Assembly: GCA_015063135.1 (NCBI GenBank)
Contig: SUTA01000008.1
Location: forward strand, 27,461 to 91,460
DNA: 64,000 nt
Reading direction: 5' to 3'
DNA from: Thermoplasmata archaeon
Lineage (GTDB): Archaea; Thermoplasmatota; Thermoplasmata; Methanomassiliicoccales; Methanomethylophilaceae
Part shown: positions 4,267-62,622 of the stretch, in pieces
Layout of the letters: the number at the start of each line of letters is the position of its first letter
How positions within the stretch are numbered: position 1 is the first letter of the stretch
Position numbers and translations under genes: made by a program
The notes under the pieces: model-generated
Seen by the model: only the letters and a program-made list of their open reading frames with translations
Told to the model about the DNA's origin: nothing
The model's database searches: none

Positions 4267-4811
4267 GGACCATCAAGGTGCCGCAGGACAGGGTCGGCAC
4301 GCTCATAGGGAAGAACGGGGAGACCAAGAAGATGCTCCAGGACATCTCCGGGATAAAGCTGGACATCGACACCGAGGAGGGGGACGTCATCATCCACGAC
4401 GACGTGGAGCTGGAGGACCCCGTCATGGCCCTCAAGATCATGGACGTCATCAGGGCCGTCGGCAGGGGTTTCAACCCCGAGAAGGCCACCAGGCTCTTCG
4501 ATGACGACGAGTACCTGGAGATCGTCGACCTGAAGGACTTCGTCGGCGACCGCGAGGGCGCCGTCCACAGGGTCAGGGGCCGCCTCATAGGGAAGGACGG
4601 CAAGACCCGCAGGATCATCGAGGACCTCACCGGCTGCGACATGATCATCTACGGCAACACCGTCGGCCTCATCGGGAACTCGATAAGCCTGCCCGTGGCC
4701 AAGCACGCCGTGGAGCTCATCCTGCACGGCAGCGAGCATGCGACGGTCTACCACTACCTCGAGAGCCAGAGGCCCCGCCTCAGGATCGCCGAGATGGGAT
4801 TCGACGTGCGA
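4263..4811 (+). CDS. KH-domain RNA-binding protein, Dim2/Pno1-like; ends at CGA
   Basis: Binds the 3' region of small-subunit rRNA during maturation, together with RIO1 and Nob1. Two KH modules are visible, with GxxG loops in GTLIGKNGETKK and RGRLIGKDGKTRR. No canonical stop follows; the frame runs straight on into Pus10. The first in-frame CGA (4809-4811) gives 182 residues, normal for archaeal Dim2, and lies 9 bases before the Pus10 ATG. A real KH-Pus10 fusion is the alternative, but the same CGA pattern recurs throughout the window, so I end the gene here. Confidence 0.88.
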
Positions 4812-4820
4812 GGGTTCCCC

Positions 4821-6047
4821 ATGGAGCAGTGGATACAGGACAATTACGATAAAGCGAAGCAGCTGGCAGCCATGGGCCTCTGCGACCATTGCCTCGGCCG
4901 CATGTTCGGCAAGATAGGCAGCGGGATGACCAACGACGCCAGGGGCCGCATCATACGCGATGCCCTCAGGGAGAACGGGGACGACCTCCCCGCCGAGGAC
5001 TTCTGCCCCCTGTGCGAGAACGTCTTCGAGCTCATGGACAGGTTCGCCGAGGCCGCCGCGGAGGCGGTGAACTCGGTCGAGTCCAACAACTTCCTGGTGG
5101 GCTCCAAGGTCGAGCCCGAGATAGCCGCCCGCGAGAAGCAGATCTGGGCGGATCTGGGTCTCGAGAGCCCGGAGTCCCTGAACAGGGAGCTCAACAGGGA
5201 GATCGGCAAGGCCGCGCTCCCCCTCATCAACCGCCCGGTGGAGTTCAAGGTGCCCGAAGTCGTGGCGCTGGTGGACACCAGGTTCGCCGACGTCACGCTG
5301 GACATCGCGCCCCTGTTCATCGCCGGCAGGTACAACAAGTACAGCAGGGAGATACCCCAGACCATCTGGCCCTGCAGGATGTGCCACGGCAAGGGATGCG
5401 ACTACTGCCACGGCAAGGGGAAGATGTACGAGACCTCCGTCCAGGAGATCATCGGGGACATCGCCCTCGAGATGACCGGCGGCGAGGAGCACTTCTTCCA
5501 CGGCATGGGCCGCGAGGACATAGATGCCAGGATGCTCGGGGACGGCCGCCCGTTCGTCCTCGAGATAAGCCGCCCCGTGCGCAGGTTCATCGACCTCGAC
5601 GAGCTCGAGGAGAGGTCCAGCGCCGGAGAGATGGCAGCATTCAACAGCCTCCACTTCGTCAAGCGCGAGGCCGTGGAGAGGTACAAGGCCGCCGCTTCTG
5701 ATAAAGTATATCGCGTGCACGTGTTGGTAGACGGCAAAGTTAATAAAGAGGCAGTAGTTAGGGCGGCACAATCGTTCAAGGACGCCGACATAAACCAGCG
5801 GACTCCGCGCAGAGTCGAGCACAGACGTGCCGACCTCGTGCGCCACAGGAGGATCCACTGGGTGAAGGCGGACTCCATCGGCGAGGACTCGTTCGATCTC
5901 GAACTGGAGACCGACTCGGGGACCTACGTCAAGGAGTTCGTGTCGGGAGACGAGGGCAGGACCGAACCGAGCTTCTCAGAGGCTCTGGGGGTCCAGTGCC
6001 GCGTCGAAACGCTCGACGTGTTGGCGATCAACTATCACGAACCACGA
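4821..6047 (+). CDS. pus10: tRNA pseudouridine synthase Pus10 (positions 54/55); ends at CGA
   Basis: Makes pseudouridine 54/55 in archaeal tRNA T-arms. The N-terminal zinc part has CDHC (residues 21-24) and CPLC, then CRMC...CDYC; the catalytic block GREDIDARMLGDGRPFVLEI contains the catalytic Asp; GTYVKEFVSGDEGR closes the catalytic fold. The first in-frame CGA, 6045-6047, gives 408 residues and lies 10 bases before the L21e ATG. Without termination there the frame would stay open to 6683 through two other genes. I scanned the codons: this is the only in-frame CGA after 4811. Confidence 0.92.
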
Positions 6048-6057
6048 GGGATAATCC

Positions 6058-6354
6058 ATGCAGAGATCCAGAGGAACGAGGACGAAGACCCGCAACGTCC
6101 TCAAGAAGAAAGTCAGGGCACGCGGCCTGTCGCCGATCACCAAAGGCCTCCAGACGTTCGAGGAGGGCCAGAAGGTCAACATCATCATCGACCCCAGCGT
6201 CCACAAGGGCATGCCGTTCTCCAGGTTCCACGGGAAGACCGGCGTCGTCGTCGGCGAGAGGGGAAGCGCCTACGAGGTCAGCGTCAAGGACGGCAACAAG
6301 ACCAAGCTGGTCGTCGCCCGCCCCGAGCACCTCGTCAGGAACAACGACAGCTGA
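6058..6354 (+). CDS. rpl21e: Large ribosomal subunit protein eL21 (L21e)
   Basis: Structural protein of the archaeal/eukaryotic large subunit. The 98-residue basic protein has the family pattern: N-terminal MQRSRGTRTKTRNVL, then GQKVNIIIDPSVHKGMP and FHGKTGVVVGERGSAYEV. Length is typical. It begins 10 bases after the CGA that closes Pus10, in a different frame, and ends in TGA, 11 bases before rpoF. Order L21e-rpoF-DUF655-ksgA is widely conserved in archaea, which supports every call in this stretch. Confidence 0.97.
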   Translation: MQRSRGTRTKTRNVLKKKVRARGLSPITKGLQTFEEGQKVNIIIDPSVHKGMPFSRFHGKTGVVVGERGSAYEVSVKDGNKTKLVVARPEHLVRNNDS

Positions 6355-6365
6355 GGTGCGTCGCT

Positions 6366-7259: not shown

Positions 7260-8020
7260 TCTCCGAAACGGGGGTCGTCCCGAAGAAGTCCAAGGGACAG
7301 AACTTCCTGACCGACGGCCGCGTGGCCGACCGGCACATCTCCTACGCCGGCATACAGAGGACGGACCGCGTCCTTGAGGTGGGCCCCGGCCTGGGCATCC
7401 TCACCGAGAGGCTGCTGGAGAAGACCGACGACCTCACCTGCATCGAACTGGACGACATCCTGGCAGATTACATCTCCAGGACCTACGGCGACAGGCTCAA
7501 GCTCATCCACGGCGACGCCGTGAAGGTCCCGTTCCCGGAGTTCGACGTGTTCGTCAGCAACCTGCCCTACAGCGTATCCACCCCCATCATATTCAAGCTG
7601 CTCGACTGCTCCTTCAGGACCGCCGTCGTCATGGTCCAGAAGGAGTTCGCGGACCGCATGGTCGCCGACGTCGGCAGCCCCGACTACTCCCGCCTGACCG
7701 TCGGGCTCTTCTACCGCGCCGACTGCGAGATCATGGAGACCGTCCCCGCATCCCGCTTCAACCCGAAGCCGAAGGTGGACTCCGCCCTCGTGAGGATCAC
7801 CCCCCGGAAAGCCCCGTTCGACGTCATCGACGAGGAACTGTACTTCAAGGTCACCAAGGTAGCGTTCGACCACCGCAGGAAGAAGATCGGGACCTCCCTC
7901 AAGGCCGCCGGACTGGTCAAGCCGGGCATGGACGTCCCGTACCTCGACGACAGGATAGAGAACCTGCGCCCGGCGGAGATCGCGGAGATCGCGGATGCCA
8001 TATCAGGGTCCGGGAACCGA
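7238..8020 (+). CDS. ksgA: 16S rRNA dimethyladenosine transferase KsgA/Dim1; ends at CGA
   Basis: Dimethylates two adjacent adenosines near the 3' end of 16S rRNA. Signature motifs: GQNFLTDGRVADR, SAM-binding LEVGPGLGILTERLLE, CIELDD, and SNLPYSVSTPIIFKLL (NLPY catalytic motif). The C-terminal helical domain ends ...EIADAISGSGN, where the first in-frame CGA (8018-8020) gives 260 residues, the usual size. The next canonical stop would be 8087-8089, inside the next gene. All arginine codons in the gene were inspected: none is CGA. Confidence 0.94.
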
Positions 8021-8040: not shown

Positions 8041-8703
8041 ACGAAGGACCATCTCGCCCGCAGGTACTGCGTCTTCTTCATGGGCCTAATCACCATAACA
8101 TTCGGGATCGCGATCATAACAAAGGCGGACCTCGGGACCTCGCCCATCACCTCCATCCCCTACAGCCTGTCGCTGATCTTCGACGGGATAACGTTCGGCA
8201 CGTTCACGCTGATGTTCAGCATCCTCCAGGTGGCCCTCCAGTTCGTGATCCTGGGCAAGGATGCCGACAGGTTCAACCTGATGCTCCAATTCGTGATATG
8301 CTTCGTCTTCGGCTACTTCGTCGACTTCGCAATGATGGCCATGTCGTGGTTCGAGCCCTCCGAGTATGCGGCCAGGGTGCTGTCTGTCGTCGCCGGCTGC
8401 TTCGTCCTGGCCTTCGGCGTCTACCTGCAGCTGGTGGCGGACGTGGTCATGGTTCCGGGCGACGGATTCGTGTACGCCCTGAAGATGAGGCTCCGCTGGG
8501 AGTACGCCAAGGTCAGATTCACCCACGACCTCACCCTGGTTGCAATCGCAGCCGTAATGTGCCTCATATGCCTCGGGGACCTGGGAGGCGTTAGGGAAGG
8601 CACCCTGATCAGCGTCGCATGTGTCGGGCTGATAGCCCGCCAGTACCTCAACCGCCTCGGATGGCTGACGAGGCCCCTCCTGCCACCCTCTCCCGAGCAA
8701 CGA
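8041..8703 (+). CDS. YczE/YyaS-type membrane protein; ACG start, ends at CGA
   Basis: Polytopic membrane protein (about five or six hydrophobic segments) of the YczE family, whose role is not established. Homology-like sequence (HLARRYCVFFMGLITITF, then KADLGTSPITSIPYSL) begins before the first ATG (8080). No ATG, GTG or TTG exists upstream in frame, but ACG 8041 is preceded by GGAGG at 8028-8032 with ideal spacing, so an ACG start is inferred. First in-frame CGA, 8701-8703, gives 220 residues ending LLPPSPEQ; the next canonical stop lies at 8830-8832. Confidence 0.75.
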
Positions 8704-8835: not shown

Positions 8836-10755
8836 ATGAACGAGCTCTTCCTCATGCTTAGCCTTGGGTTGTTCACCTTGCTCGCTGGGATCTGCTCTGT
8901 CGTCTTCAACAAGCTGAAGCTGCCGCCGCTCATAGGATACCTCGTTGCAGGAATAATACTGGCCAACATCTGGGAGGTAAGTGAGGAGGGCGACCTAATC
9001 GTCGACATCCTCTCGGATATGGGGTTAGTCCTGCTGATGTTCTGCATCGGATTGGAGATCAACCTCAGGAAATTGAAGAAGCAAGGCATGTTCGCCATGA
9101 TCGTGTGCATGGTGCAGATGCCTCTGATCCTGATCGGCGGCTTCGCCGCTGGTGCCTTCATGGGCATGGATATGGTCCAATCCCTGGCGCTAGGCGCCAT
9201 CATGTCCGGCTCCAGCACAGCGGTCGTCCTGGCGGTCCTGGAATCACAGAACTACCTGGACAAGGACCATAACGAGATGATCATCCTCGTGCTGATCGTC
9301 GAGGATATCGGCCAGGTCGTTCTGCTCTCCATCCTCGGTCCCATGATGACCGGGGCGGACATGAGCCTCGACTCCCTCATGATAATGATCCTCAGCATCA
9401 TCGCATTCATGGCCGCCAGCATATTCATCGGCCTCCGGATGATGCCCCCGGCCCTCAACTGGCTGGCGGACAACACATCGAAGGAGGTAGTAATCGTCTT
9501 GGCTGTGGGGATGGCCTTCACCCTGGCATACCTGTCTATGCTGGTCGGGCTGTCCATGGCCATCGGCGCCTTCCTGATGGGGCTGATAGTGGCTTCCACC
9601 AGGAAGAGCAAGGACATACATCATGCCATTGAGCCGATGGAACGCCTCTTCATGGCCATGTTCTTCATCTCCGTGGGGATGGAGGTCGCCATAGGGTCTT
9701 TCGTAGACAACATCCTGCTGATCATCGGTCTCTACCTGGTGTTCCTGGTTCTGAAGATCCTCTCCGTGTATCTGGGCTACTTCGTGGCCAACGAGAAGGG
9801 AAAGATCTGCTGGCTTTCCGCCGTGAGCCTCACCGTGATGGGCGAATTCGCATTCATCATCGCCAAGGAGGCCCTTGATAACGGGGTGATGGGCCAGGAC
9901 ATGTACACAGCCGTGGTGGGAGCGGCCCTGATATCGATGATAGCCCTCCCGGTGATAGCGAAATATGCCGAGCGCGGATGGGATGCCATGGAGAGGAGAT
10001 GCCCCGAAGCGGTCGCCAGCGGGCTCGGCAGGGTGGTCCGCTACAGGGACGACATCTACGAGTCGTTCCTGGGAGCCTCCAATCGCTCCAAGAGGGCCAT
10101 CCGCAGGAGCATGGCTTTCGCCTACGTGAACATGCTGCTCATAATCGCCGTGCAGCTGTTCTTCTTCCTATTCGCTGCCCCCATGGCCCATTGGCTGGAT
10201 GACTGGACCCCCGTGATCAACTACGATGGATGGTGCCTCATCACCATGATCGCCAACTTCCTCATCCTGTTCCCGCTGGCCCTGCAACTCGTCAACAATG
10301 CGAAGATCCTGGACAGGGCGGTGGTCAGGAGCAGCAGGCTCATGGCCAAATCGGCAGGCTCCCAGAAGCGCTACCAGAAGATCCTGGAATTCAATTCTGG
10401 GATAGTCGCATTCGCCATCGTGACCCTCATCATCGCAGTGGTCCCGAATCCCCTGGGATTGATGCAGCATGTGATGCTGTTCATCCTCGCAGGGGCGTCC
10501 ATAGCCTTCATGGCGTTCCTCGCTTACCTGAAGGAGAGGAACGATGAGCAGGAAGGAGGGGCCGACGAGGGAGCACCGGAGGCCGAAAAGCCCCCTGAGC
10601 CCGTCACAGACAGCATCAAGCATGAGGTGGACCAGGATGACACCGGCCAGCAGCATCGCGACGTGTCTGGCCAGGGGCTCTTCGAGGTCGTCAAAGCGGA
10701 TAACGTGGATGGGGGATACGAGATATTCGTCCAGCCCGGAGAGCGCAACCTGCGA
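8836..10755 (+). CDS. CPA2-family cation/proton antiporter, copy 1; ends at CGA
   Basis: Na+/K+:H+ exchange at the cytoplasmic membrane. The first 400 residues form a KefB/NapA-like transporter (about 12 helices) with SGSSTAVVLAVLE and LIVEDIGQVVLLS, the conserved acidic site. Then come a basic linker, three or four more helices and an acidic tail ending YEIFVQPGERNL. The CGA at 10753-10755 gives 639 residues. A TATA element for the next gene starts 6 bases later. I read every codon: this is the only in-frame CGA. No RCK/TrkA-N domain is present. Confidence 0.9.
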
Positions 10756-10797: not shown

Positions 10798-12720
10798 ATG
10801 GACGAATTCCTACTGCTGATCAACCTCACGGCTTTCACGACGGTTGCTGCAGTCTGCTCCATGGTGTTCAACAAAATCCGCCTGCCCCCTCTGATCGGCT
10901 ACCTGTCCGCGGGCATCATCCTGACCACCGTATGGGAGGTCACCGAGGAGTCGGAGTTCATCATCAGCATCCTGGCCGACATGGGATTGATCATGATGAT
11001 GTTCTGCATCGGAGTGGAGATCAATCTGAAGAAGTTGCGTAAGCAGGGGATGTTCGCCATAATGGTCGGGATGGTCCAAATTCCGATGATATTGATCGGG
11101 GGCTACATCGCCGGGACCCTCATGGGCTTCGGCATGGTGGAATCCCTCGCGCTGGGCGCCATCATGTCCGGCTCGAGCACCGCCGTGGTGCTGGCCGTCC
11201 AGAGGTCCACCACCATCCTTGACCGCGACCACAAGGAGATGCTGGTCCTCGTGCTCATAGTCGAGGACATCGCACAGGTGGTGCTGCTGTCCATACTCTC
11301 GCCCATGATGGCCGGGAGCGAGATGGACGCCGACGCGCTGATCATCATGATCCTGAGCATCATGGTGTTCATGGGCCTCAGCATCTTCGTCGGCCTGCGC
11401 CTAATACCGCCCGCGATAAACTGGCTGGCCGACAACGTGTCCCACGAGGTGGTGATGGTCTCCGTCCTCGGATTCACCTTCACCATGGCCCTCATGTCCG
11501 TCTACGTCGGACTGTCCATGGCCATCGGGGCGTTCCTGGCGGGTATGATGGTCGCCTCCACCAGGAAGAGCCAGGAGATCCATCGCAGCATAGAGCCCAT
11601 GGAGAGCCTCTTCATGGCCATGTTCTTCATCTCCGTGGGGATGGAGATCACCGCGGGCGACCTCGTGGATAACCTCGGGACCAGCGCCCTGCTGTACTTC
11701 ATATTCGTCGTGCTGATGGTCACCGGCGTGTTCATCGGCTACATGGTGGCCAATGAGAAGGGGAAGACCGCGTTCCTCTCGGCCGTCAGCCTGGCTGTCA
11801 TGGGGGAGTTCGCGTTCATCATATCCAAATCCGCGCTGGAATACGGCGTCATCACCACATCCCTGTACACCTCCATCGTGGAGACCGCCCTGCTGTCCAT
11901 GGTCATACTGCCCATAGCCGCGAAGTTCGCCGAGCGGTTCTGGGACAAGAGCGCCGAGAAGTGCCCCGAGGGCATCAAGCGCTTCTGCACCCGCATGCTG
12001 GCCAGGAGGGACAGCATCTACGCCAAGATGTCCGAGGCCACCAAGAAGTCCAGGAGGGCGGTCAGAAGGACCATGGCGCTGGCCTACATCGATATCCTCG
12101 CCATAATCATCATACAGATCATCTTCTTCCTCGGCGTCGATCCGGCTGCAAAGTGGCTCGCCGAGGAGACGGGGTCCAGCGAGCTGCTCTGGGACATGAT
12201 CCTGATGACCATCAACTTCCTGGTCCAGCTGGTGCCCGCCCACATGGTCGTCACGAACGTCAAGTTCCTGGACGAGGCCGTGGTCAGGAGCAGCAGATAC
12301 ATGTCCAACGGGAGGCGCGGGCGCCTGGACCCCTCCAAGATCTACCAGATGTTCCTCGAGCTCAACTCCTATGTCCTGGCGTTCGTGATAGTCCTGCTGA
12401 TCATCACGGTCGTCCCGAACCCGCTTGGGATCTGGGAGCAGACCCTGATGTTCGCCATCGCCGCCCTCATCCTGGTCCTGTCATTCTGGTTCAACATCCA
12501 CAACAAGAAGGAGGCCGGCGACATGGACGTCTACGACATGGACGACTTCGCCAGCGACGGGGGCAGCGCCCCGGATAAGGATGGGGAGAAGGTTGAGGAG
12601 GATCCGGCGGAGAAGCCGGCCGCCCATTCGGTGCCCGTGAAGGTGAAGGAACCGAATCCCGAGGGGGAGTGGGACTCCGAGATCGAAGTCTTCATCCCCG
12701 AGGGGAAGAGGGAATTCCGA
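10798..12720 (+). CDS. CPA2-family cation/proton antiporter, copy 2; ends at CGA
   Basis: Tandem paralogue of the preceding gene with the same architecture: antiporter core with SGSSTAVVLAVQ and LIVEDIAQVVLLS, linker, extra helices and an acidic tail (VEEDPAEKPAAH...). Its C-terminus EIEVFIPEGKREF aligns with YEIFVQPGERNL of copy 1, and both are followed at once by CGA. The CGA (12718-12720) gives 640 residues, one more than copy 1. It directly abuts the CGA of the convergent amidohydrolase, together reading CGATCG. Confidence 0.9.
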
Positions 12721-14010
12721 TCGCCTCTGGCAGAGGCTCCTCCAGACGTCCTCGGACCTATCCATGACGTCGTCCACGTCCAGGGTGGCCACGCGGCCGT
12801 CGTCCACGACCACATCGCCCTGGCAGAGCACGGTCCTCACGTTGAGGCTGTTGGCCGAGTAGGCGATGTTCGCTATGATGTTCTCGGGCACGAGAGGCCT
12901 GAGGTTGGGGGACCTGCCGCTGAGGATCACGATGTCCGCGTACTTGCCGGGCTCGATGGATCCGAGGGAGTCCTGCATCCCGATGGCCTTCGCGCCGTTG
13001 ATGGTGGCGAAGTCCAGGAGCTGCTGTGCGTTGCACACGGTGGGATCCCATCTGCTGGCCTTCTGAAGGAGGCCCAGGGTCTTCATCTCGGCGAACATGT
13101 CGAGGGAGTTGTTGGTGGTGCTCCCGTCGGTGCCGAACGATACGTTGACGCCGTTGGCCAGGAACTCGGGGACAGGGGCGACCCCACCTGTGGCGAGCTT
13201 CATGTTGGACACGGGGCAGGACGAGATGGACATGCCGGCATCGCCCATGAGCCTGACCTCGCGCTGAGTGAGCCACGCGGAGTGCGCGGCGACGCCGCGG
13301 GGGCCGAATACCCCGATCTCGGAGAGCCACTCGCCGGGTCTCATGCCGGTCTTCTTCTTGTGGTCGTTTACCTCCCCTCTGGTCTCGGAAAGGTGGAAGT
13401 TCATGGGGGCCCCGACGGAATCGGAGAACTCCTTGGCCTGGACGCAGGTCTCCTCGTTGCAGACGTAGACGCCCTGGAGGCCGACTCCTGGCACGATCTT
13501 CCTCTGGCCCTTGTACCTTGCGTGGAAGCCCTTGCAGTTCTGAACAGGGTTGCCGTTCTGGGTGGTCTTGTCCTCGTCCAGGCAGCACCAGCAGAGGACT
13601 CCGCGGATGCCGGCCTTCTTGACTGCCTCGGCGATGACGTCCTCCGAGTAGTAGAGGTCCATGAAGGTGGTGGTCCCGCCGCGCATCATCTCGATGCAGC
13701 CCAGCTTGGTCCCGATGTCGAGGTCGTAGTCGGTCCTGTCGGAGTCGATCCTGAATACGTTGTCCAGGAAGTCCGGGAAGGTCATGTCGTCCACGACCCC
13801 TTTCATCACGGTCATGGCGACGTGCGTATGGGTGTTGATCATTCCCGGCATGACGATGTCGCCGGTGGCGTCGATCTCCCTGTCGGCGGTCCCCTTGTAC
13901 TCGGGGCCGACGGATACGATTCTCTCGCCGTCCACGACCACATCCCCGCGGATTACCCTGCGGGAAGCGTCCTGGGTGACGATCCATGCGTTGCGGATCG
14001 CTGTTATCAT
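12721..14010 (-). CDS. Amidohydrolase (adenosine / 5'-methylthioadenosine / S-adenosylhomocysteine deaminase family); ends at CGA
   Basis: Metal-dependent deaminase of the MtaD/DadD type. Motifs in order: MPGMINTHTHVAM (metal HxH), MNFHLSETRGEV, GVAAHSAWLT (His) and VSFGTDGSTTNNSLDMFAEMK (Asp). In methanogens related enzymes deaminate SAH, MTA and 5'-deoxyadenosine. CGA at 12723-12721 gives 429 residues, the family norm; the frame otherwise continues antisense through the antiporter to 12481. Checking all arginine codons found no earlier CGA. Substrate is not decided by sequence. Confidence 0.88.
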
Positions 14011-14048: not shown

Positions 14049-16247
14049 TCGTCCGTAGAACTGCGGCGAGTCCCAGGAGGTCCTGCGCTTCTTGGCCTCC
14101 CTGCCGACCTTCTCGTAGAACTGGAACGCCGTGTCGTCCACGGACGGCGGGATGCTGCGGACCGCCTGCTCGAAGTGCCTCATGGACACCTCCCTCGCGT
14201 TCGGGTCCTCCCTGTACGCCGACAGCCCCGCCTCCCTGCAGACCATCGCCAGGTCCGCGCCGACGTATCCGTCGGTCATCGCTGCGAGGGCGTCTAGATC
14301 CACGCCGCCGAGCGGCATGTCCCTGGTGTGGATGCCGAGGATGGCCCTGCGTGACGCCTGGTCCGGCCTGCCCACGAGGATCATCGTGTCCAGCCTGCCC
14401 GGCCTCAGGAGCGCGGGATCGACCATGTCCGGGCGGTTGGTGGCGGCCATCACCGTCACCCCCTTGAGGTTCTCCACCCCGTCTATGGATGTCAGGATCT
14501 GCGCCACTACCCTCTCCCAGGCCTGGCTGTCACCGGACCCGCGGATGGGGGCGATGGAATCGATCTCGTCGAAGAAGATGATGCACGGAGAGAGCTGCTT
14601 CCCCCTCTTGAATATCTGGCGGACGGCCCTCTCGCTCTCGCCCAGCCACTTGCTGGCGATCTCCGGCCCGTTCACGGTGATGAAGTTGCACCCGGCGGCA
14701 TTGGCGACAGCCTTGGCGATGAGGGTCTTCCCGGTGCCCGGAGGGCCGTACAGGAGTATCCCCTTGCCTGGCTTGATGCCGAGCCTGTCGAAGGCCTCGT
14801 TGCCGTCCTCCGTCGCTATGACCTCGTCCAGCCTCGACCTCACGGAGTCCAGGCCGCCTATGTCCCCCCAGGTGACCTTGGGGATCTCGACGGTGACCTC
14901 CCTCATGCCGCTGGGCTCTATCTCCCCGAGCGCGTCCATGAAGTCGTCCATGGTGACCTTCATGGCCTCGAGGACCTGCGGCGGGACTGGTTTGTCCAGA
15001 TCCAGGGAGCTCATGCGCTTGCCCAGGCACTTCATGGCGGCCTCCCTGCACAATGCTGCGAGGTCCGCGCCGACGAAGCCCTGCGTTATGGATGCGAGCT
15101 GCTCCAGGGAGACGTCCTCGGTCATGGGCATCTCGCGGGCGTGGACGCTCAGGATGTCGAGCCTCGCCCTCCTGCCCGGGACGCCTATCTCTATCTCCCT
15201 GTCGAACCTTCCCGGACGCCTCAGCGCCGGGTCGATGGAGTCCTCGCGGTTGGTCGCGCCGATGACGATGACGTTGCCGCGGTCGCCCATGCCGTCCATG
15301 AGGGTCAGCAGCTGCGCAACGACCCTCCTCTCCACCTCGCCAGGGGCGGCATCCCTCTGCGGTGCGATGGAATCTATCTCGTCCAGGAATATTATGCTGG
15401 GAGCGTTCTCCGCAGCCTCGGCGAACATGTCCCTGAGGCGCTCCTCGCTCTCCCCGTAGTACTTGCCCATGATCTCCGGTCCGCGGATCGAGTACATTGA
15501 TGCGCCGGACTCGTTTGCCACCGCCTCTGCGATGAGGGTCTTCCCGGTGCCGGGCGGGCCGTACAGCAGCACGCCCCTGGGCGCGGATATCCCGAGCCTA
15601 TCGAACAGCTCCGGATGCTTCAGCGGCAGCTCTATGATCTCCCTGATGCGGCGGAGCTCGTCATCCAGGCCGCCCACGTCGTCGTAGGTGACCCTCTTCC
15701 CCCCTGGGCTCGCCTTGGACTTCTCCTGCGGGGAGTCCTTGACCGTGATGTCCGTGTCCTCGCCGACGACCACCGGCCCCTGCGGGGACGTGGAGACGAC
15801 GGCGAAGGTGGACCTGTTGCCCATGAGGGCGATGTTGGGGACGATGATGTCCGTGCCTGCGATCAGCGGCCTGCCGATCAGCCCGTTGCGGAATACGCTC
15901 TCGAACTCCTTGTCGAACTCGATCCTCTTCCCCTCGGGGATGTTGGGAGCGAGCACTACCTTCCTGGCGGGCTGGGGCTCGCATCTGGAGACGGTGACGT
16001 TCTCGTCGACGCTGACGCCGGCGTTGGTCCTGGTCAGGCCGTCTATGCGTATCAGGCCCTGCCCCTCGTCCTCGATGGAGCATTTGAATACCTTGGCGAC
16101 GACCGGGCGCTTGCCCTCGATCATGATGGTGTCGCCCAACGACAATCCCAGAGCGCGCCTGGTGTCCGAATCGACCCTGGCGCGCCCGAACCCGGCCTCC
16201 GACTGGCGCTGCGCCATTGCGACCTTGAGGACGATGGAACCGGGCAT
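14049..16247 (-). CDS. cdc48: CDC48/VAT-type AAA+ ATPase; ends at CGA
   Basis: Hexameric protein unfoldase (VCP-like). The N-terminal double-psi barrel (AQRQSEAGFGRARVDSDTRR) is followed by two AAA domains, each with GPPGTGKTLIA and a Walker B (IIFLDEIDSIAP; IIFFDEIDSIAP), plus arginine fingers. The first CGA, at 14051-14049 after SWDSPQFYG, gives 732 residues as in VAT; the canonical stop would lie past the amidohydrolase start. A TATA-like TTTTATTATC sits about 25 bases before ATG 16247, suggesting a leaderless mRNA. Confidence 0.94.
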
Positions 16248-17476: not shown

Positions 17477-18309
17477 CAGTATCCCTCTATTTCTCCCTCG
17501 AAGACGAGCTCCGCGGGTCCCTCCATGAGGACGTATCCGAGGTCCGGGTCAACCGTGATCCTCAGCCATCCCCCGGGGAGCTCCACATCCACCGGCTTCC
17601 CGAACGGGACCAGCCCGTTGAGCGCCGCGGCCGTGGTGGTGGCGCATGCCCCTGTCCCGCAGGCCAGGGTCCATGCGGCCCCCCTCTCGTAAACCGTTAT
17701 ATGAATCTTCCCGTCCTCGACCCTGCAGAACTCCACGTTGGTCTTGCGGGGGAAGAACGGATGCGCCTCCAGGACTGGCCCCAGCGCCCTGACCTGCTCC
17801 TCGGTGAGCGGGTCGAAGGTGATGAAGTGGGGGTTGCCCATGGAGACGGCGTTCGCCCTGAACCTGACTCCCATGGCCTCGAAGGGCTGATCGATGAACC
17901 TGCCGTCGAAGTCGACGGGGACCTCCCTGCCCTCCAGGATGGGGGCTCCCATGTTGATCCTGACCGCGGCGACCTTCCCTCCCTTCAGGGACACCGTCGC
18001 CTCGAGGTCTCCCCTGAGGGTGTGGACGGTGAACACGTCGCCCTTCACGAAGCCGAAGTCGCGGGCGTGCTTGGCGAGGCACCTGATGCCGTTGCCGCAC
18101 ATCTCCGCCTCGCTGCCGTCGGCGTTGATGATCCTCATGGTGACGTCGGTGCCCTCTCCGGGGAGGAGGTAGAGCACGCCGTCCGCGCCGATGCCGTAGT
18201 GGCGGTCGCAGACCCTCCGGCACCACTCCGGGTCTATCTCCAGATGCTGGGTGATGCCGTCCACGAGGACGAAGTCGTTGCCGATGCCCTGGTACTTCCA
18301 GAACCTCAT
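17476..18309 (-). CDS. dapF: Diaminopimelate epimerase
   Basis: Interconverts LL- and meso-diaminopimelate. In 277 residues both catalytic cysteines are seen: GSEAEMCGNGIRCLAKHA and WTLACGTGACATTT, plus MRFWKYQGIGNDFVLVD at the N-terminus. The ATG overlaps the lysA terminal CGA as CGATG, and its TGA overlaps dapL. Translational coupling along the operon is likely. Confidence 0.97.
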   Translation of the reverse strand: MRFWKYQGIGNDFVLVDGITQHLEIDPEWCRRVCDRHYGIGADGVLYLLPGEGTDVTMRIINADGSEAEMCGNGIRCLAKHARDFGFVKGDVFTVHTLRGDLEATVSLKGGKVAAVRINMGAPILEGREVPVDFDGRFIDQPFEAMGVRFRANAVSMGNPHFITFDPLTEEQVRALGPVLEAHPFFPRKTNVEFCRVEDGKIHITVYERGAAWTLACGTGACATTTAAALNGLVPFGKPVDVELPGGWLRITVDPDLGYVLMEGPAELVFEGEIEGY

Positions 18310-19565
18310 CGCTGCAGCCTCTTGGGGACGATCTGGTGCCTCCACATCTCCTCGATGGACTCGGCCTCGCGGATGAGCTCCGCCTGGCCGTCGTTGACCA
18401 GCACCTCCGCGCACAGGGGGCGGGAGTTGTAGTTGCTGCTCATGGAGAAGCCGTAGGCCCCGGCGTTGTAGACCGCCAGGATGTCGCCCTCCTGCGGGTC
18501 GGGGAGGACCCTGTCGTGGGCGATGTAGTCGCCGGACTCGCAGATGGGGCCAACGACGTCGTACTTCCTGGTGCACGCCTTGCCCATCCTGTTGGCGATG
18601 GCCACGTGGTGGTAGGAGTCGTACATCGCGGGGCGGATCAGGGTGTTGAATCCCGCATCGGTCCCGATGTAGGTCTTGACCCCGGTGTCCTTGATGTCGT
18701 TGACCGTCGCCAGGAGCACCACCGCATCGCACACGATGTACCTGCCGGGCTCGAGGACTATTGTCCTTACATCGGTCTCCTCCAGGATCATGTCCGTGAG
18801 GTTCATGGCCATCTCGCCGACGTCCATCTCCTCCTCCTGCGGCTTGTACGGGACCCCGATGCCGCCGCCGATGTCGATGAACTCCAGGTCGATGCCCAAC
18901 TCGGCGATCTCGTTGGTCAGGTTGATGAGGACCTCGACCATGTCCATAAAGGGCTCGACGGACTGCCCGCCGGAGCCGATGTGCGCATGGATCCCCTTGA
19001 TGTCGAACCCGAGGTCCTTGGCCCTGGCGTAGGTGCTGATGACCTGGTCCAGGGGGATCCCGAACTTGGCGCCCTTGGATCCGGTGATGACCTTGGCGCT
19101 GTGGCCGGAGCCCACGTTGGGCGTGATCCTGAACGAGACCTTGTGGCCGGGGGAGATCTCCGCCAGCCTCTCCATCTCGGAGACCGAGTCCAGGTTGATC
19201 ATGACGCCGGTCTCGGCGACCTCCCTGAGCTCCCTGTTGCTGACGTTGACGCCGGTGTACATGATCCTGTCCGGCGTGAACCCCGCCTTGAGGCAGGTCC
19301 TGACCTCGCCGATGGAGACGGCATCGATGCCGGAGCCCTCCTGCTCGAGGATCCTGAGCACGGCCAGGCTGGTGTTCGCCTTGCAGGCGTAGTGTATCCT
19401 GGTGTCCATGTACCTGGAGTAGGCCTCGTACACCTTGCGGTAGTTCTCCCTTATGCGGGCCTCGTCCACGACGTAGACCGGGGTCCCGAACTCCCTGGCG
19501 ATCTCCGGTGCGGAGACGCCGCCGATCATCATGTTGCTGTCCTTGGTCTCGAACTCGCGCATCAT
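18309..19565 (-). CDS. lysA: Diaminopimelate decarboxylase; CGA then TGA at its end
   Basis: PLP-dependent decarboxylation of meso-diaminopimelate to lysine. Motifs: IHYACKANTSLAVL (PLP lysine), GIHAHIGSGGQSVEP, FIDIGGGIGVPY, VLEPGRYIV and ICESGDYIAHDR. The protein ends ...VPKRLQ followed by CGA (18311-18309) and directly TGA (18308-18306). In either reading it finishes here: 418 residues with CGA as stop, one more if CGA is arginine. CGA overlaps the dapF start (CGATG). ATG 19565 overlaps lysC in the same way. Confidence 0.96.
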
Positions 19566-45749: not shown

Positions 45750-45813
45750 GGGCAGTGGATGCCCTTCGAATGACAATAATATATCGTTGCAGAAGACGCG
45801 ATGCCATCCCGCA

Positions 45814-46929
45814 TCGGGGATGCAGCGTGATGAGCTCCCATGCGCAGTGCGCCTCGGTGCGAATGGGTATGGCCCATCCGCTCATCCCGGGCGTCACATA
45901 CAGGCGCGTCCCCAGGCAGTCGTATTCCCCGCATACTTGGGGATAGAACAGCCTGTACAGCGTCTTCAGCGGCCACAGCTGCCCGGCATGCGTGTGTCCG
46001 GAGAGCTGCAGCGCGGAGACCTCCTCTTCGAGCTGAACGTTGTCGTAGGGCTGGTGGTCCGCGACGACCAATGCTCCGCCCGGATAGGGGTTCACCAGCT
46101 CGGACCAGTCCTTCCTCGAATCGACGCTGAGGTCCTCCCTGCCCAGCAGGACCAGGTCGGAGTCCACCTGCACGAACTCATCGGCCAGGACGATGATGCC
46201 GGCACCCTCGAGCGCATCCAGGAGCTGCTCGTCCGTATACGTGCGGCCCCCGACGAAATCCGCGCCCGGCTGCCTATCGTGATTCCCGTACACGAAGTAC
46301 ACCGGGATGTCGACGGTGGACAGGATGGAATACGTCTCCACCATCTCCTCGTACGTGGTGAGCTCGTCGGTCACGTCCCCTCCGAGGATCAGGAACTCGG
46401 CCCCGGATTCGTTGACCTGCCTGCAGAAATCCCTGAGGACGTCCATCGATTGGGCCGATCCGGTATGCAGGTCGGCTGCGAACGCGAATGTATGCGCCCT
46501 CTCGAGGCCGTCCGCCTGCCATTCGTGGATGTCCTCGTTCACCGTCTCCGCGTTCACGGTGCCGTACGCGAGCACGACTATGCAAATGGCCAGACCTATC
46601 GGTGCGCCTATCCTGTGATCGAACCTATGCCTCGATTCGCCGTCGGCATCGCCCCTGGCCCTTATCCAGCGGACGGCGTATTCGACGACGCTAGCGACCA
46701 CGTCCCCGATCAATGCAACGTAGATGGCGCACATGATGCGGCCGAAGTTGTAGGGAAGCCACCACTCGATGGCCGAGAAAAGGACCGCCACCGCCGGGAT
46801 CAGGATGAGCTTCAGGAGGAAGACCGCCGAACGCAGGACCCTGTGCTCTTCCTTCCTAAGAGGGATCTGGGCCGCGTACAGAACGGCCCATGCCAGGAAG
46901 GCCTCAGCGATGAAGAGCACATCAATCAT
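45814..46929 (-). CDS. Membrane-anchored calcineurin-like metallophosphatase; ends at CGA
   Basis: 371 residues: four N-terminal hydrophobic segments (to about residue 120), then a metallophosphatase domain with AADLHTGS (D.H), LILGGDVTDE (GD), YFVYGNHDRQ (GNHD) and LSGHTHAGQLWP (GHTH). Similar to YkoQ/YaeI-type enzymes acting on lipid-linked phosphates. ATG 46929 opens the first helix. CGA 45816-45814 follows CAWELITLHP; all arginine codons checked, none earlier is CGA. Confidence 0.88.
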
Positions 46930-49691: not shown

Positions 49692-51218
49692 ATGATGGAA
49701 AGGAAACTGCTGGCGATCCTGGCGATCGCAGCCATTGCCGTCGCGGCGGCCACCGTGATCGTAGCAACATCGCACACGGGCGAAAAGGTCGAAATCATCT
49801 ACGATCTGAACGACGACCTGACTGCGGGAGTGGAGGATGTCACTGGCGACCCCGTCAGACTGACCATCCCCTCGCAGACCGTTTCGGACGGGAAGACATA
49901 CACTGTGACGCATATCGAATACGGCGCATTGGACAAATGCGGCAAGATGGAGTATCTCAACCTCCCGTCATCCCTGATGTACATCGAGGACGGCGTCCTC
50001 GACAGCCGCTATTCCCTCAAAGGCATAGATGTCGCCGAGGGCAACGAGTTCTACAGCTCCGTCGACGGCGTCCTCTTCGACGCTTACAAGAAGCTCCTCG
50101 TGAAATATCCGGCATCCAAGACCGGCGAGAGCTACACCGTGCCGGAGAGCGCATGGGTCATAATGGACATGGCATTCTGCGGAGCTTCCAAGCTGAAGGG
50201 TGTCGTCCTGCATGACGGCATATACTCGTTCGGGAACTTCACATTCAAGGACTGCACCAGCCTCAGATCGGTGACGATCCCCGAATCCCTGAGCACCATC
50301 GGATTGGGATCGTTCAACGGATGCAGTTCCCTCGAAAGCATCGATGTCTCGACGAAGAACAAGCACTATGAGTCGGAGGACGGAATCCTCTATCAGATCG
50401 GAGGATACAGGCTCCTCCAGTATCCCATAGGCAGCTCCGCCGCGGTCTTCGAACTCCCCGAGATGGTCATGGAGATCTCCGACGGGGCATTCGCGGAATG
50501 CACCAAACTCAAGGAGATAACGCTCAACGGCAACCTCATATGGATCGGGGCGAAGGCTTTCGAAGGATGCACATCGCTAACCACCGTGCACAACAATTCC
50601 TGTCTGCCCGTGATCGCAGGATCGGACATGTGCGGTTCAGTGGCCAAATACGCTTCGGAAGTCGACGGCACCGTCGGATCGTACGTGGACGATGACGGAT
50701 TCGCATACAGCTACAACATGAAATCCGGTATCGCGCAGATCACAGGATACAGAGGGGAAGCGAAGGACCTGTCCATCGAAGCGGATGTCGACATCGAGGA
50801 AGACAAGTACGAGATCAACAGCATAGGGATAATAGCCTTCCTCGGCACCGATGTGGAGAAGGTATCCCTGCCTAGCACCTTGGTGTCCATCGCCGCCACC
50901 GCATTCTATGGATGCGGTTCGCTGACGGACTTCGCCGCGGGAGGTCTGGCCTACATAGGCATATCCGCATTCTCTGGATGCAGTTCCCTCGCTCGGATAG
51001 ACCTGGACATGAGCATCAGCTTCGTTGATGACAGCGCATTCGAGGACATCAGCACGATAAAGCGCATCGAGTTCGACTCGGGACTGATGTACGTCGGCGA
51101 TGATGCGTTCAGCGGATTGGAGTTCTTCGACGGCGAGACGGAGGTCATACCGGTCGCGGAGGAGCTGAGCGGTACCATATGGACCGGCAGCGGAGACGGG
51201 AAGGTCTACTACTCCCGA
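49692..51218 (+). CDS. Exported BspA-like leucine-rich-repeat protein, copy 1; ends at CGA
   Basis: 508 residues with an N-terminal hydrophobic signal anchor (LLAILAIAAIAVAAATVIVA). At least ten BspA-type repeats of about 23 residues follow, such as YIEDGVL, IGLGSFNGCSSLESIDV, IGAKAFEGCTSLTTV and IGISAFSGCSSLARIDL. These surface proteins mediate adhesion in gut bacteria and occur in gut methanogens. CGA 51216-51218 after GKVYYS; canonical stop only at 51279, antisense to the next gene. No earlier CGA. Confidence 0.87.
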
Positions 51219-59134: not shown

Positions 59135-60114
59135 TGGATACCGTCCTCGTCATACCCGGCGACGGGTTCGGCCCCTCCGTGGTCGACATCGCCGTGAAGA
59201 CGCTGGAGGCCGTCTCCACCGGGATCGACCTGATCCCCGGGGAGATCGGCTACGCTGCGTACGAGAAGAGCACGCAGGACATCACCCTCGAGACGCTGGA
59301 GGCCCTCGCGGAAAGCAAAGGCGTGCTCTGCGGCCCGTGCAGGGCAAGGACCGATGACCGCGGGAAGACCCACGACCCGCTGGATATCCTGAAGACCCAC
59401 ATGAGCCTTTTCGCCATGATGAGGAGATTCAAATCATACCGGCCCGGAGGGCCGAGGGTGGCCCTCGACCTCTGGGCCAGCATCACCGCCGTCGGCCGCG
59501 ACACCGTCGAAACGGCCGAGCTCGGAGGCATCACCCTGACCAAGTACGTCAGGACATCCAACTACGACCGCACGATGGGGCTGGCCTACTCCATCATGAA
59601 GGTGCACAGCAGGAACAGGATCGCCTGCATCAGCAGCGATGACATCTTCCCGGAGAGCAGCAGGCTGTTCAGGGAGGAGTTCGACAGCATCTTCGGAGAG
59701 GGCTTCGAGACGGAGCACATGAACGTGGCCGAATGGTCGGAGGACGCGGTGATGCACCCAGAACGCTTCGACGCGGTCATATGCGCCGACCTCTACAGCC
59801 GCATGGCGGCTGGGGTGATGGCCGGGATCACGGGCGGCAACCATCTGTCGCCCTACCTGTACCCCGGCGAGAAGGGGAGCCTCCTGTACACTAACCGCAT
59901 CGATGACTTCCCCAAGGACCGTGCCGCATACGCCAACCCCACCGCGGCGATCGCCTCCGCGGCCATGCTCATGCAGGCCATGGGCAGGGTCCCCGGGGCC
60001 GATGCCGTATTCAGAGCCCTGGAGGAGACCTACGCCGAGGGGAGCGCTACCCCCGACATGGGCGGGAACCTCACCACGGCCGAGTTCGCGGACAGGTTCT
60101 TCAGGCACCTGCGA
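59134..60114 (+). CDS. Isopropylmalate / isocitrate / homoisocitrate dehydrogenase family; ends at CGA
   Basis: NAD(P)-dependent beta-decarboxylating dehydrogenase, 326 residues. VIPGDGFGPSVVDIAV (nucleotide side), YDRTMGLAYSIMKVHSRNRIAC, DAVICADLYSRMAAG and GGNLTTAEFADRF. The pattern is divergent (ARTDDRGKTHDPLDILKTHM replaces the standard substrate loop), so LeuB, AksF (coenzyme B synthesis) or another substrate is open. The CGA 60112-60114 after RFFRHL ends it just before the next TATA box. Confidence 0.82.
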
Positions 60115-60118
60115 ACCC

Positions 60119-60130: not shown

Positions 60131-60157
60131 GGGCCCCGCATATTACAGGGGGATAAC

Positions 60158-61207
60158 ATGAAGGACACGGGTCACAGGTCATGCGTTGAGTCCGCGCTCA
60201 GATTCGAGGAGACGGACCGCACTCCCGTCAACAACTTCTCCCTGGTAACCGCCGCGCACAGCGCCGGCGTCACCGTCGAGGCGGCCAGATGGGACCCTCG
60301 GATGTCCGCGAAGGTCTCCGTCGACTACGCCATGAAGACGGAATCCGACTTCGTCAAGCCCGTCCTGGACTCCCAGGTGCCCTTCATGGACCTGGGCATG
60401 AACGTCACCCTGCCGGAGAACGACTACGGCAGGGTCCACGGCCACATCGCCTCCAACGCGGAGGAGATCGACGATCTGGCTCTTTTCGACCCGTACGCCG
60501 CCGAGGAATGCCCCAACTTCACCAAGGTCTTCGTGGAGAGCCTGGAGGAGACCGCGAGGATCCTCCCGGAGGACCTCCACATCTGCGGCCTCTCCTGGGG
60601 CCCTTTCACCACCGCCGGCTACGTCATGGGCATGGAGGAGATGATCATGAACACCATGATGGAACCGGACCTGGTGAAGAAACTCGTTGCCAAAGTCACC
60701 GACTACGTCTCCGGGATCCAGAGGCGCATGGTCGACGCGGGCGCCACAGTCATGTGGATGGCCGATCCCTCGTCCTCTGAGGACATGATATCCGCCGATA
60801 TGTTCAACGAGTTCTCCCGCGACGCCATCAAGAGGTGCATCTCCGACGTCAAGGCCGAACACAAGGACATCCCCGCGTTCATCCACATCTGCGGGAAGAC
60901 CCTGGACACCATCCCGTTCCTGTTCGATACCGGGGCCGACTGCCTCAGCTTCGACCACGCCGTGAACCCCGGCGCAGCCAAGAAGGCCGCCAAGGGGAGG
61001 ATAGCGCTGATGGGCAACATCGACCCGGTGGCCCAGATACTCTATGGGACCCCCGAGAGCATCACCCAGGAATGCTACAGCATCCTGGACCAGGCCGCCA
61101 GCGGAGGAGGGTTCATCCTCGCCCCCGGATGCGAGACGCCCCTCAAGAGCCCGGACGAGAACGTGCTGGCCATGGGCCGCGCGGGCAGGGAGTTCTGGAA
61201 GAAGCGA
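60158..61207 (+). CDS. Uroporphyrinogen decarboxylase-fold corrinoid:CoM methyltransferase (MtaA/MtbA-like); ends at CGA
   Basis: Zinc-dependent methyl transfer from methyl-corrinoid protein to coenzyme M. 349 residues; zinc ligands HICGKT (His-x-Cys) and GCETP (Cys), SWGPFTTAGYVMG, DPSSSEDMIS, SFDHAVNPGAAKK and RIALMGNIDPV. CGA 61205-61207 after GREFWKK gives MtbA size; read-through would go into the tRNA gene. Whether methanol-, methylamine- or other-substrate specific is not decided; no cognate corrinoid genes are nearby. Confidence 0.87.
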
Positions 61208-61255
61208 GGGGCGACCAAATCTTTATTAAGAAGGTGCCTGTACGGAGCCCTAAGT

Positions 61256-61342
61256 GCAAGGGTAGTCAAGCATGGCCAACGACGCTAGCTTGAGGGGCTA
61301 GTCCTTAGCGGTCCGCGAGTTCAAATCTCGTCCCTTGCACCA
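61256..61342 (+). tRNA. tRNA-Leu (anticodon GAG), CCA encoded
   Basis: Class II tRNA: acceptor GCAAGGG / CCCTTGC, anticodon stem CTAGC/GCTAG with loop TTGAGGG (anticodon GAG), long variable arm, T-arm GAGTTCAAATCTC, discriminator A, CCA encoded. A TATA-like CTTTATTAAG lies about 30 bases upstream, just past the CGA of the methyltransferase gene. Confidence 0.92.
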
Positions 61343-61470
61343 TTTTCGCTCCCAATTGCTCCCTGTTCATCGCTGCAAAGGCGCCCCTATGGCCCGATTC
61401 AGCGCCCGCCGGCCTTTTTCCAGCCTTAGTTATTTATGTATAACCACGCATGCGCGCCCTAAGTGTGCTG
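61343..61470. promoter_or_regulatory. Intergenic promoter of the homocysteine cluster
   Basis: No gene. A TTATTTATGTATAACC block at about 61430-61445 is the likely TATA element for the DUF39 gene. Confidence 0.5.
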
Positions 61471-62622
61471 ATGTCCAAGACTTATGAGCAAATCAACGAG
61501 AGGATCCGTTCCGGCAAGGCCGTCGTATACACGGCCGAGGAAGTCATGGACCTCGTCAGGAAGAAGGGCGCCGAGAAGGCGGCCGAGGAAGTGGATGTGG
61601 TGACCACCGGCACGTTCGGTGCCATGTGCTCATCGGGAGCGTTCGTGAACTTCGGCCATTCGTCCCCTCCCATCCGCATGACGGACATCAGGCTCAACGA
61701 CGTCGAGGCCTACGGCGGCCTCGCGGCCGTGGACACGTACATCGGCGCCACGGCGCTCACCGAGGACCCCAAAGGGGGGTACGGCGGCGCCCATGTCATC
61801 GAGGACCTCATCGCGGGGAAGAAGATACACCTCCGCGCCTGGGGCCCCGGCACCGACTGCTACGTGAGGAAGAGCATCGACACTTACATCACTCTCGACG
61901 ACATCAACGACGCGTACCTCTACAACCCGCGCAACTGCTACCAGAACTACAGCGTCGCCACCAACACGTCCGAGAGGACCATCTACACCTACATGGGCAA
62001 GCTCCTGCCCAAGATGAAGAACGCCTCGTTCAGCTCCGCCGGCCAGCTGTCCCCCCTCCTGAAGGACCCCCATCTGGAGACCATCGGCATGGGGACCAGG
62101 ATCTTCTTCGGCGGCGGGGAGGGCTACGTCACGTGGCCCGGCACCCAGTACAAGACCAACGTGGAGGAGGTCGACGGCGTCCCCGTCGCAGGGGCCAGGA
62201 CCCTGGCGCTCATAGGGGACATGAAGCAGATGGACAGCAAGTTCGTCCGCGGCCTCGACATCACCGGCTACGGCATATCCATGGCCGTCGGAGTGGGCAT
62301 CCCGATCCCGATCCTGAACAAGGAGATCATGGAGCACGCCGCGAAGAGCGACGAGGAGCTCTTCGCCGAGATGGTGGACTACAGCCAGCCCGTGGACAGG
62401 CCGCCCATGGCCAGATACAGCTACGCCCAGCTCAGGTCCGGCAAGGTGGAGTACCAGGGCAGGATGATCAGGACGTCCTCGCTTTCGTCCTATTCCGGCG
62501 CCAGGAAGGTGGCCAGCATCCTGAAGGACTGGATCGAGCACAAGGAGTTCACGCTCAACCAGCCGGTCATGACCTTCCCGAAGGAGATGAAACTGAAGAA
62601 GCTCGAGGAGAGGGGGTGCCGA
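61471..62622 (+). CDS. Homocysteine biosynthesis protein, DUF39 (aspartate-semialdehyde sulfurtransferase subunit); ends at CGA
   Basis: Archaeal family (MA1821 type) that with a NIL/ferredoxin partner converts aspartate semialdehyde and sulfide to homocysteine. 383 residues; TTGTFGAMCSSGAFVNFGHSSPPIRM, GAHVIEDLIAGKK, NPRNCYQNYSVATNTS and GTRIFFGGGEGYV are conserved. No C-terminal CBS pair. ATG 61450 would add seven residues. CGA 62620-62622 after LEERGC is followed by one base and the next ATG. Every arginine codon checked: none earlier is CGA. Confidence 0.9.

Follow-up and report, generated by a model that had tools for sequence, protein, structure and literature searches.

A probable additional stop codon, CGA, in a cellular archaeal genome of the Methanomethylophilaceae

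Sense codons have become stop codons in vertebrate mitochondria, where AGR has undergone this change. In mitochondria of the Sphaeropleales, according to the sections of PMC6821328 that were consulted, the sense codon UCA (and UCG) has vanished from genes and become a stop with accompanying release-factor changes, and the cognate tRNA gene for UCG is absent. Bacterial reassignments of CGA, CGG, and AGG identified with Codetta combine rare arginine codons with altered tRNA sets; in the parts of that survey consulted these codons go to Trp, Gln, or Met, the CGA and CGG cases being found in genomes low in guanine plus cytosine (GC), and the terms "to stop" and "sense-to-stop" do not occur in its text (PMC8629427). 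Across the papers examined, sense-to-stop changes belong to mitochondria alone, cellular reassignments having turned stops into sense codons or exchanged one amino acid for another. The subject of this report is a stretch of 64,000 nucleotides (positions 27,461 to 91,460 of contig SUTA01000008.1, assembly GCA_015063135.1; hereafter the window) from an archaeon of the Methanomethylophilaceae, order Methanomassiliicoccales, in which many genes appear to end at the arginine codon CGA. The disappearance of this codon from genes, its place at gene ends, the release-factor changes, and the missing tRNA-Arg(UCG) resemble the Sphaeropleales, and a rare arginine codon with an altered tRNA set resembles the bacterial cases; however, the Sphaeropleales change concerns an organelle, a bacterial-type mtRF1a, and the second codon base, whereas here a 1.86 Mb cellular archaeal genome, an eRF1-type release factor (aRF1), and the first base are involved. 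The original prediction, made from the sequence of the window, knew of no described code with CGA as stop; among the literature matches listed (mostly outside subscription journals and bioRxiv) we likewise found no report of a CGA stop or of altered termination in Methanomassiliicoccales, and the main text of a Genome Biology survey of the order mentions neither stop codon, genetic code, CGA, nor release factor (PMC10804542).

Very probably, CGA is read as a stop in this organism beside TGA and TAA, with aRF1 as the predicted reader; it is likely to be an added stop that operates alongside the still commoner TGA. The assembly (40 contigs, 87% complete, GC-rich) was sampled over 479,810 bases, the window included, and gene ends were placed by homology to templates, that is, open reading frames (ORFs) of other species ending in TAA or TGA. 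The 104 ends obtained comprise 51 TGA, 32 CGA, 8 TAA, no TAG, and 13 unresolved, so that CGA makes up 32 of 91 resolved ends; the corresponding figure for 34 relatives that use CGA as sense is 8 of 481 (Fisher p 4e-21). Inside genes, none of 1,453 arginine codons is CGA, compared with 327 of 8,268 in the same relatives (p 4e-24), and from these two counts it follows that CGA is likely read as stop. Counting within conserved alignment blocks, as had been proposed, showed CGA to be absent from all 26,052 aligned codons and hence from conserved arginine positions; the same blocks hold five canonical stops (TGA 2, TAG 2, TAA 1), a measure of noise. With internal CGA at zero in the sample, no CGA stands opposite a different amino acid within genes, and a sense-to-sense reassignment is not indicated. 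Templates from at least two species support 24 of the 32 CGA ends. A stricter end test returned CGA at 14 of 25 ends and no internal CGA in 14,113 codons; for five CGA ends from this test, with 27-68 homologues each, 212 of 256 homologues end at the exact codon. Applied to relatives, the main test that yielded the 104 ends above gave 1 CGA among 104 ends in G016 and 2 among 96 in G009.

These counts supersede an early homology count that was noisy in the absence of antisense-ORF removal and gave way first to greedy strand filtering and then to the stricter end tests. Relatives were classed as CGA-depleted when they had at most one CGA outside aRF1, CGA at under 0.6% of arginine codons, and at least 60 arginine codons; two single-template hits placed G041 in the CGA-sense class, and its removal for the Fisher comparisons left the 34 relatives. 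An assembly or sequencing artefact was judged unlikely because CGA ends recur in independent assemblies. TAG is not used at any of the 91 resolved ends, and its two internal occurrences are at noise level; this scarcity would fit reservation for pyrrolysine.

All 33 window positions originally listed as gene ends are CGA on the strand given, each being the first in-frame CGA or stop of its ORF (Table 1), and at 29 of them eight or more further codons precede a canonical stop. If CGA were an ordinary rare arginine codon and these ends had been mis-called, genes would continue to the next canonical stop. Read-through frames then enter other genes or run antisense, which the original prediction had claimed for up to a kilobase and which here extends to as many as 1,094 codons, and a single frame at 4263-6680 spans the KH, Pus10, and Rpb4/RpoF genes, with CGA-containing sequence alone between them. 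Such frames were compared with Pfam for 30 of the 33 sites and with NCBIfam for 10 (9 shared with the Pfam comparison; 45814 (-) in NCBIfam only), 18309 and 19565 being left out. As to the claim that the shortened genes have lengths suited to their families, many Pfam and NCBIfam profiles finish just 5' of CGA; of the 30 Pfam frames, 5 gave no match at 1e-5, and some domains finish far earlier, such frames being uninformative. Homologues define the end at 8 of the 33 sites (2 by one template), the others being without a template in the sample or profile-based. The protein record of the window species' aRF1, P0001, was called with 63 extra residues beyond CGA that look like noise. With profiles and homologues finishing at or near CGA, and with CGA ends so far in excess of those in CGA-sense relatives, an ordinary arginine codon is extremely improbable, even though a canonical stop follows within three codons at 4 of the 33 sites and many relatives nearly devoid of coding CGA end few genes with it. 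Public databases probably contain many fusions like P0001.

A search for the cognate tRNA, also suggested by the original prediction, found no tRNA-Arg(UCG) among the 44 tRNA genes of the 87% complete assembly, whose arginine tRNA types are TCT, CCT, GCG, and CCG. The complete genus mate G016 has 42 anticodon types including Arg(UCG), of which the window genome has 41, lacking Arg(UCG) alone; the tRNA is likewise present in G031, G020, G010, and G041. In G016, G031, and G041 it adjoins a conserved gene of 355 amino acids, which marks the ancestral site. In the window genome this gene lies at C25:94321-95364, homology resumes at 95744, and in the assembled gap between them a search for tRNA-Arg(UCG) gave an alignment score no higher than the best of 200 shuffles. 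Synteny was settled at the tRNA-Thr(GGT) locus, the tRNA-Arg(GCG) locus being rearranged in the window species. Thus tRNA-Arg(UCG) has been lost from its ancestral site and, since the assembly is incomplete, its loss from the whole genome is rated as likely.

Among relatives, a tRNA pattern with an over-long spacer matched tRNA-Pro(CGG) and chance sites and was rejected. A second pattern gave signatures in many genomes and missed real tRNAs (those of G010, G041, G108, G110, and G091, found by BLAST, and that of G009, found by full inventory alone); because of these misses, non-detection by pattern or BLAST in G003, G014, G015, G018, G019, and G032-G035 is no evidence of absence. The G009 copy also showed to be wrong the idea that species with a CGA in aRF1, such as G009, are without the tRNA. 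In G016, G031, G010, G041, and G020 the tRNA looks weak, with a 31-39 mismatch leaving a four-pair anticodon stem, and in G009 and G011 C33 replaces U33; weakness was judged by eye from the sequences, with an ARAGORN drawing for G016 alone (loci L286:179-253 (-), L340-L343, and L433:187-261 (-)).

In the window species CGA also closes the aRF1 gene, in overlap with the ATG that follows; the stop at this place is TGA or TAA in genus mates. The gene contains no internal CGA, and its codon 77 is CGC. Inspection of the factor, as had been recommended, revealed Asn65 and His66 following NIKS-KTTM, in place of the Lys and then Asn or Ala of all 102 other rows. These residues align with eRF1 positions 69 and 70. 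Ser70 is counted among the stop-recognition residues in the parts of PMC12153298 consulted, which also report that a change at this position accompanies altered stop reading in Blastocrithidia, as His66 would here; there, however, UGA is read through as sense, whereas here the stop set would widen. All 96 rows with an identity of at least 64% (the window species included) carry Met or Leu at position 64, the equivalent of eRF1 Arg68; the 26 more distant rows have R, K, Q, or N. In simulations described in the consulted part of PMC5681627, Arg68Ala lowers the penalty against first-position C, CGA included, from ~6 to 1-2 kcal/mol, and Met64 may therefore offer a plausible mechanism for reading CGA.

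The best aRF1 matches of the window species (84-86%) come from metagenome-assembled genomes, the majority titled Methanomethylophilaceae and several from animal guts. In the aRF1 tree, on which G041 is labeled as depleted and L106 and L116 as CGA-sense, the species clusters with its genus mates (support 100/99), as sister to them all (94/93, slightly under the starred level). P0003, a relative at 89% aRF1 identity, ends KVN-RECQ, which fits KVN-CGA followed directly by the ATG of the next gene; the aRF1 of that species perhaps also ends in CGA. A degenerate pattern of the unusual aRF1 motif found no occurrence in viral contigs.

Both the missing tRNA and the release factor bear on the possibility that CGA is simply unassigned, in which case ribosomes would stall for want of a tRNA, and Pelota/ABCE1 rescue or slow near-cognate reading would end translation without recognition by aRF1. 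We regard this as improbable. Although tRNA-Arg(UCG) was not found and the NIKS and YxCxxxF motifs of aRF1 are unchanged, a stalling signal would hardly be expected at about a third of stops, that of the aRF1 gene among them; G010 and G041 have CGA ends despite their tRNA-Arg(UCG), and aRF1 shows unique changes beside NIKS.

These last two genomes, which encode identical aRF1 proteins, illustrate that CGA ends are not confined to the window species. Of the 24 full-length CDC48 orthologues in the genus, three (window species, G010, G041) have CGA as their end codon, at the same position, and none of the 24 has an internal CGA. In the Methanomethylophilus clade, a cytidylate kinase gene (by Pfam) ends CGA-NNN-ATG before a TruB/Cbf5-type gene at 11 loci (L083, L084, L088, L090, L093, L096, and L108, each at ~500-1550, as well as L393 and L395-L397), at least two of which repeat the same or a nearly identical genome; L102, a sister of L093, has TGA at the kinase end. 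As this CGA shares its frame with the ATG downstream, either stop-and-restart or a read-through fusion could be envisaged. A cultured relative is Methanomethylophilus alvi Mx-05 (JCM 31474; PMC10673518). Over 25 genus mates CGA ends are in weak excess (26/645, p 0.015); in 14 Methanomethylophilus-clade sets the excess is clearer (16/241, p 7e-4). A subset of five genomes, chosen once the counts were known, does not serve as a test. In L088 (UBA593), arginine codons are mostly CGG (177/302), versus AGG in relatives.

The aRF1 genes of relatives carry a CGA of their own. All 24 distinct full-length aRF1 genes of genus mates (loci L044-L059, L118, L125-L138, and L204-L214) have CGA as codon 77, while 18 other conserved arginine positions are never CGA and many synonymous sites near codon 77 vary. 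In 49 CGA-depleted sets (294,563 codons, 16,771 of them Arg) there are 49 internal CGAs, 45 of which lie in aRF1 by subtraction. Exactly one CGA is present in 45 of the 49 aRF1 genes, at codon 77 (26), 24 (14; the position used in the Methanomethylophilus clade), 49 (3), or 10 or 122; the exceptions are L082 with two, L106 with three, and L099 and the window species with none. Among the 35 sets classed as CGA-sense, the aRF1 gene is free of CGA in 7 and has one in 12, two in 9, three in 5, and four in 2. On the simplest reading, selection would keep the lone CGA where aRF1 can compete with the tRNA; this codon is probably a self-sensor of the release factor, with autoregulation predicted. The window species itself lacks an in-gene aRF1 CGA, and the predicted self-sensor thus concerns its relatives only.

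This conserved codon also bears on the alternative raised originally, that C-to-U editing turns CGA into UGA in mRNA and the code itself is standard. CGA is indeed a single C-to-U change from UGA, and the homologous stop is TGA in most relatives; yet editing would have to act at many unrelated ends, with no flanking motif apparent by eye, and to spare the codon-77 CGA kept as arginine in relatives, and it accounts for neither the loss of tRNA-Arg(UCG) nor the aRF1 changes. To our knowledge, no mRNA editing of this kind occurs in archaea, and we consider this explanation very improbable.

Autoregulation through the release factor's own signal has precedents. In bacteria, prfB carries an in-frame signal for its own product and is controlled by frameshifting that depends on the release factor it encodes. 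The recoded class I release-factor genes of Mimivirus and Megavirus contain an in-frame signal of this kind, as the aRF1 genes of relatives here would, and archaeal homologues are said to be without such recoding mechanisms in the parts of the source consulted (PMC3521657). The archaeal signal differs in being CGA rather than UGA, a single arginine codon that was formerly sense, with no frameshift and with autoregulation as a prediction.

Taken together, the absence of internal CGA, the homologue-defined CGA ends, the missing tRNA with its empty syntenic site, and the altered aRF1 support the original suggestion that CGA has been reassigned to stop. Several observations weigh against it. A canonical stop lies 0-3 codons after CGA at four window sites (18309, 19565, 32299, 41241), which are not diagnostic; 8 of the 32 CGA ends rest on a single template, 13 of the 104 ends are unresolved, and one single-template CGA end at window +18329, absent from the original list, is probably an antisense artefact. 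The end test is noisy, given that CGA-sense relatives score 8/481, and one place in G041 entered the count from both strands. TGA ends still outnumber CGA ends (51 versus 32). A tRNA-Arg(UCG) elsewhere in the genome is possible, as the assembly is 87% complete and G009 keeps a divergent copy away from the ancestral place; CGA closes some genes of G010 and G041 although both retain the tRNA, so that its loss is no prerequisite. The stop-recognition motifs of aRF1 are intact, and Met64 is also carried by CGA-sense relatives and is therefore at most permissive.

With CGA as a stop remaining our preferred interpretation, we infer termination at CGA, aRF1 as its reader, and the order of events from sequence comparisons, and a three-step history may be proposed. 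First, Met or Leu at the equivalent of eRF1 Arg68 would have weakened the rejection of first-position C, making CGA a leaky stop wherever the tRNA was weak. CGA would then have been purged from coding sequence in much of the family, save one aRF1 codon, and begun to replace TGA at gene ends. Finally, in the window lineage, tRNA-Arg(UCG) would have been lost, aRF1 codon 77 become CGC, Asn65 and His66 been gained, and CGA risen to about a third of stops. More broadly, it is fairly probable that CGA is ambivalent between stop and arginine across much of the Methanomethylophilaceae, the lone CGA of aRF1 sensing its own product, such that tRNA-Arg(UCG) would read it when aRF1 is scarce and termination would occur when aRF1 is abundant; the window species would have dropped both tRNA and sensor, leaving CGA as a full fourth stop.

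The window sites are collected in Table 1. Five convergent gene pairs have CGA ends on both strands no more than 10 bases apart (12718/12721, 31145/31136, 38255/38259, 41247/41241, and 44768/44762), and the pdaD CGA at 38693 overlaps the start of the next gene as CGATG.

Table 1. Predicted CGA stops and other features of the window (positions within the window).
Feature	Coordinates	Strand	Evidence or remark
CGA stop, KH-domain (KRR1/PNO1-like) gene, 4263-4811	4809..4811	+	Read-through joins KH to Pus10 and RpoF
CGA stop, pus10, 4821-6047	6045..6047	+	TIGR01213 3-401/402 finishes at residue 403/408; CGA is codon 409
CGA stop, ksgA, 7238-8020	8018..8020	+	TIGR00755 to 254/256 at residue 253/260; CGA is codon 261
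CGA stop, DUF6198/YczE-like membrane protein, 8080-8703	8701..8703	+	DUF6198 match 4-183 of 207
CGA stop, Na/H exchanger gene, 8836-10755	10753..10755	+	Family by Pfam; domain finishes well 5' of CGA
CGA stop, second Na/H exchanger gene, 10798-12720	12718..12720	+	Abuts CGA of opposite gene (CGATCG); Pfam domain finishes well 5' of CGA
CGA stop, amidohydrolase gene, 12721-14010	12721..12723	-	NF004701 (under cut-off) to 429/432 at residue 429/429
CGA stop, CDC48-type AAA ATPase gene, 14049-16247	14049..14051	-	CGA likewise ends the G010 and G041 orthologues; the 21 remaining full-length ones have TGA/TAA
CGA at end of ORF 18309-19565, ambiguous	18309..18311	-	TGA is very next codon
CGA at end of ORF 19565-20926, ambiguous	19565..19567	-	TGA is very next codon
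CGA stop, radical SAM gene, 24847-25875	24847..24849	-	Pfam domain finishes well 5' of CGA; 12 codons to the next stop
CGA at end of ORF 24055-24894	24892..24894	+	Weak: position alone, no Pfam match
CGA stop, DNA polymerase B gene, 26833-29244	26833..26835	-	DNA_pol_B to 451/453 at residue 750/803
CGA stop, nucleoside deoxyribosyltransferase gene, 31136-31588	31136..31138	-	PF05014 to 115/117 at residue 120/150
CGA stop, 4Fe-4S protein gene, 30260-31147	31145..31147	+	Family by Pfam; domain finishes well 5' of CGA
CGA at end of phosphohydrolase-like ORF 31933-32301	32299..32301	+	TGA 2 codons on; not diagnostic
CGA stop, PAPS-reductase-domain gene, 35584-37497	37495..37497	+	Fer4_7 (slightly under cut-off) to residue 623/637
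CGA stop, ORF 37544-38257	38255..38257	+	Homologue ends 2-4 codons off; no Pfam match
CGA stop, DUF5817 gene, 38259-38693	38259..38261	-	Homologue ends at identical codon
CGA stop, pdaD (pyruvoyl-dependent arginine decarboxylase)	38693..38695	-	PF01862 (PvlArgDC) to 160/161 at residue 172/176; CGA is codon 177; 5/5 homologues end at identical codon
CGA stop, PAC2 gene, 39201-39947	39201..39203	-	PF09754 to 214/215 at residue 235/248; homologue ends at most 4 codons off
CGA at end of methyltransferase gene 41241-41867	41241..41243	-	TGA 3 codons on; not diagnostic
CGA stop, M16 peptidase gene, 39957-41249	41247..41249	+	3/3 homologues end at identical codon
CGA stop, AcnX-swivel/NUDIX ORF, 42266-43045	42266..42268	-	ORF scan and Pfam
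CGA at end of ORF 41924-42337	42335..42337	+	Weak: position alone, no Pfam match
CGA stop, YbaK/EbsC-type deacylase gene, 44762-45238	44762..44764	-	TIGR00011 (slightly under cut-off) to 151/152 at residue 152/158; CGA is codon 159; one homologue end
CGA stop, crcB, 44402-44770	44768..44770	+	TIGR00494 to 117/117 at residue 119/122; CGA is codon 123; homologue ends at most 2 codons off
CGA at end of ORF 45333-45776	45333..45335	-	Weak: position alone, no Pfam match
CGA stop, phosphodiesterase-like gene, 45814-46929	45814..45816	-	ORF scan and weak NCBIfam family match
CGA stop, BspA-type LRR gene, 49692-51218	51216..51218	+	LRR_5 match to residue 475/508
tRNA-Arg(CCG), one of four Arg tRNA types in the genome	54998..55074	-	tRNA inventory
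CGA stop, isocitrate/isopropylmalate-dehydrogenase-family gene, 59134-60114	60112..60114	+	PF00180 to 346/348 at residue 320/326
CGA stop, URO-D/MtaA-like gene, ORF 60002-61207 (true start probably later)	61205..61207	+	PF01208 to 345/346 at residue 397/401; CGA is codon 402
CGA stop, homocysteine biosynthesis (HcyBio) gene, 61450-62622	62620..62622	+	PF01837 to 349/349 at residue 369/390; CGA is codon 391; one homologue end

Within the literature searched, this would be the first change from arginine to stop found outside mitochondria, apparently the acquisition of a further stop codon by a GC-rich archaeal genome. Genomes of this kind would be mis-annotated by standard gene callers. If its predicted role is correct, the aRF1 codon would be the first known conserved signal for its own product in a cellular archaeal-type release-factor gene; we know of no earlier case. 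Living relatives resemble intermediate stages, from CGA purged from genes, through few CGA ends and a weak-looking tRNA, to loss of that tRNA, and the capture of a codon by a release factor would thereby become directly testable in the Methanomethylophilaceae.

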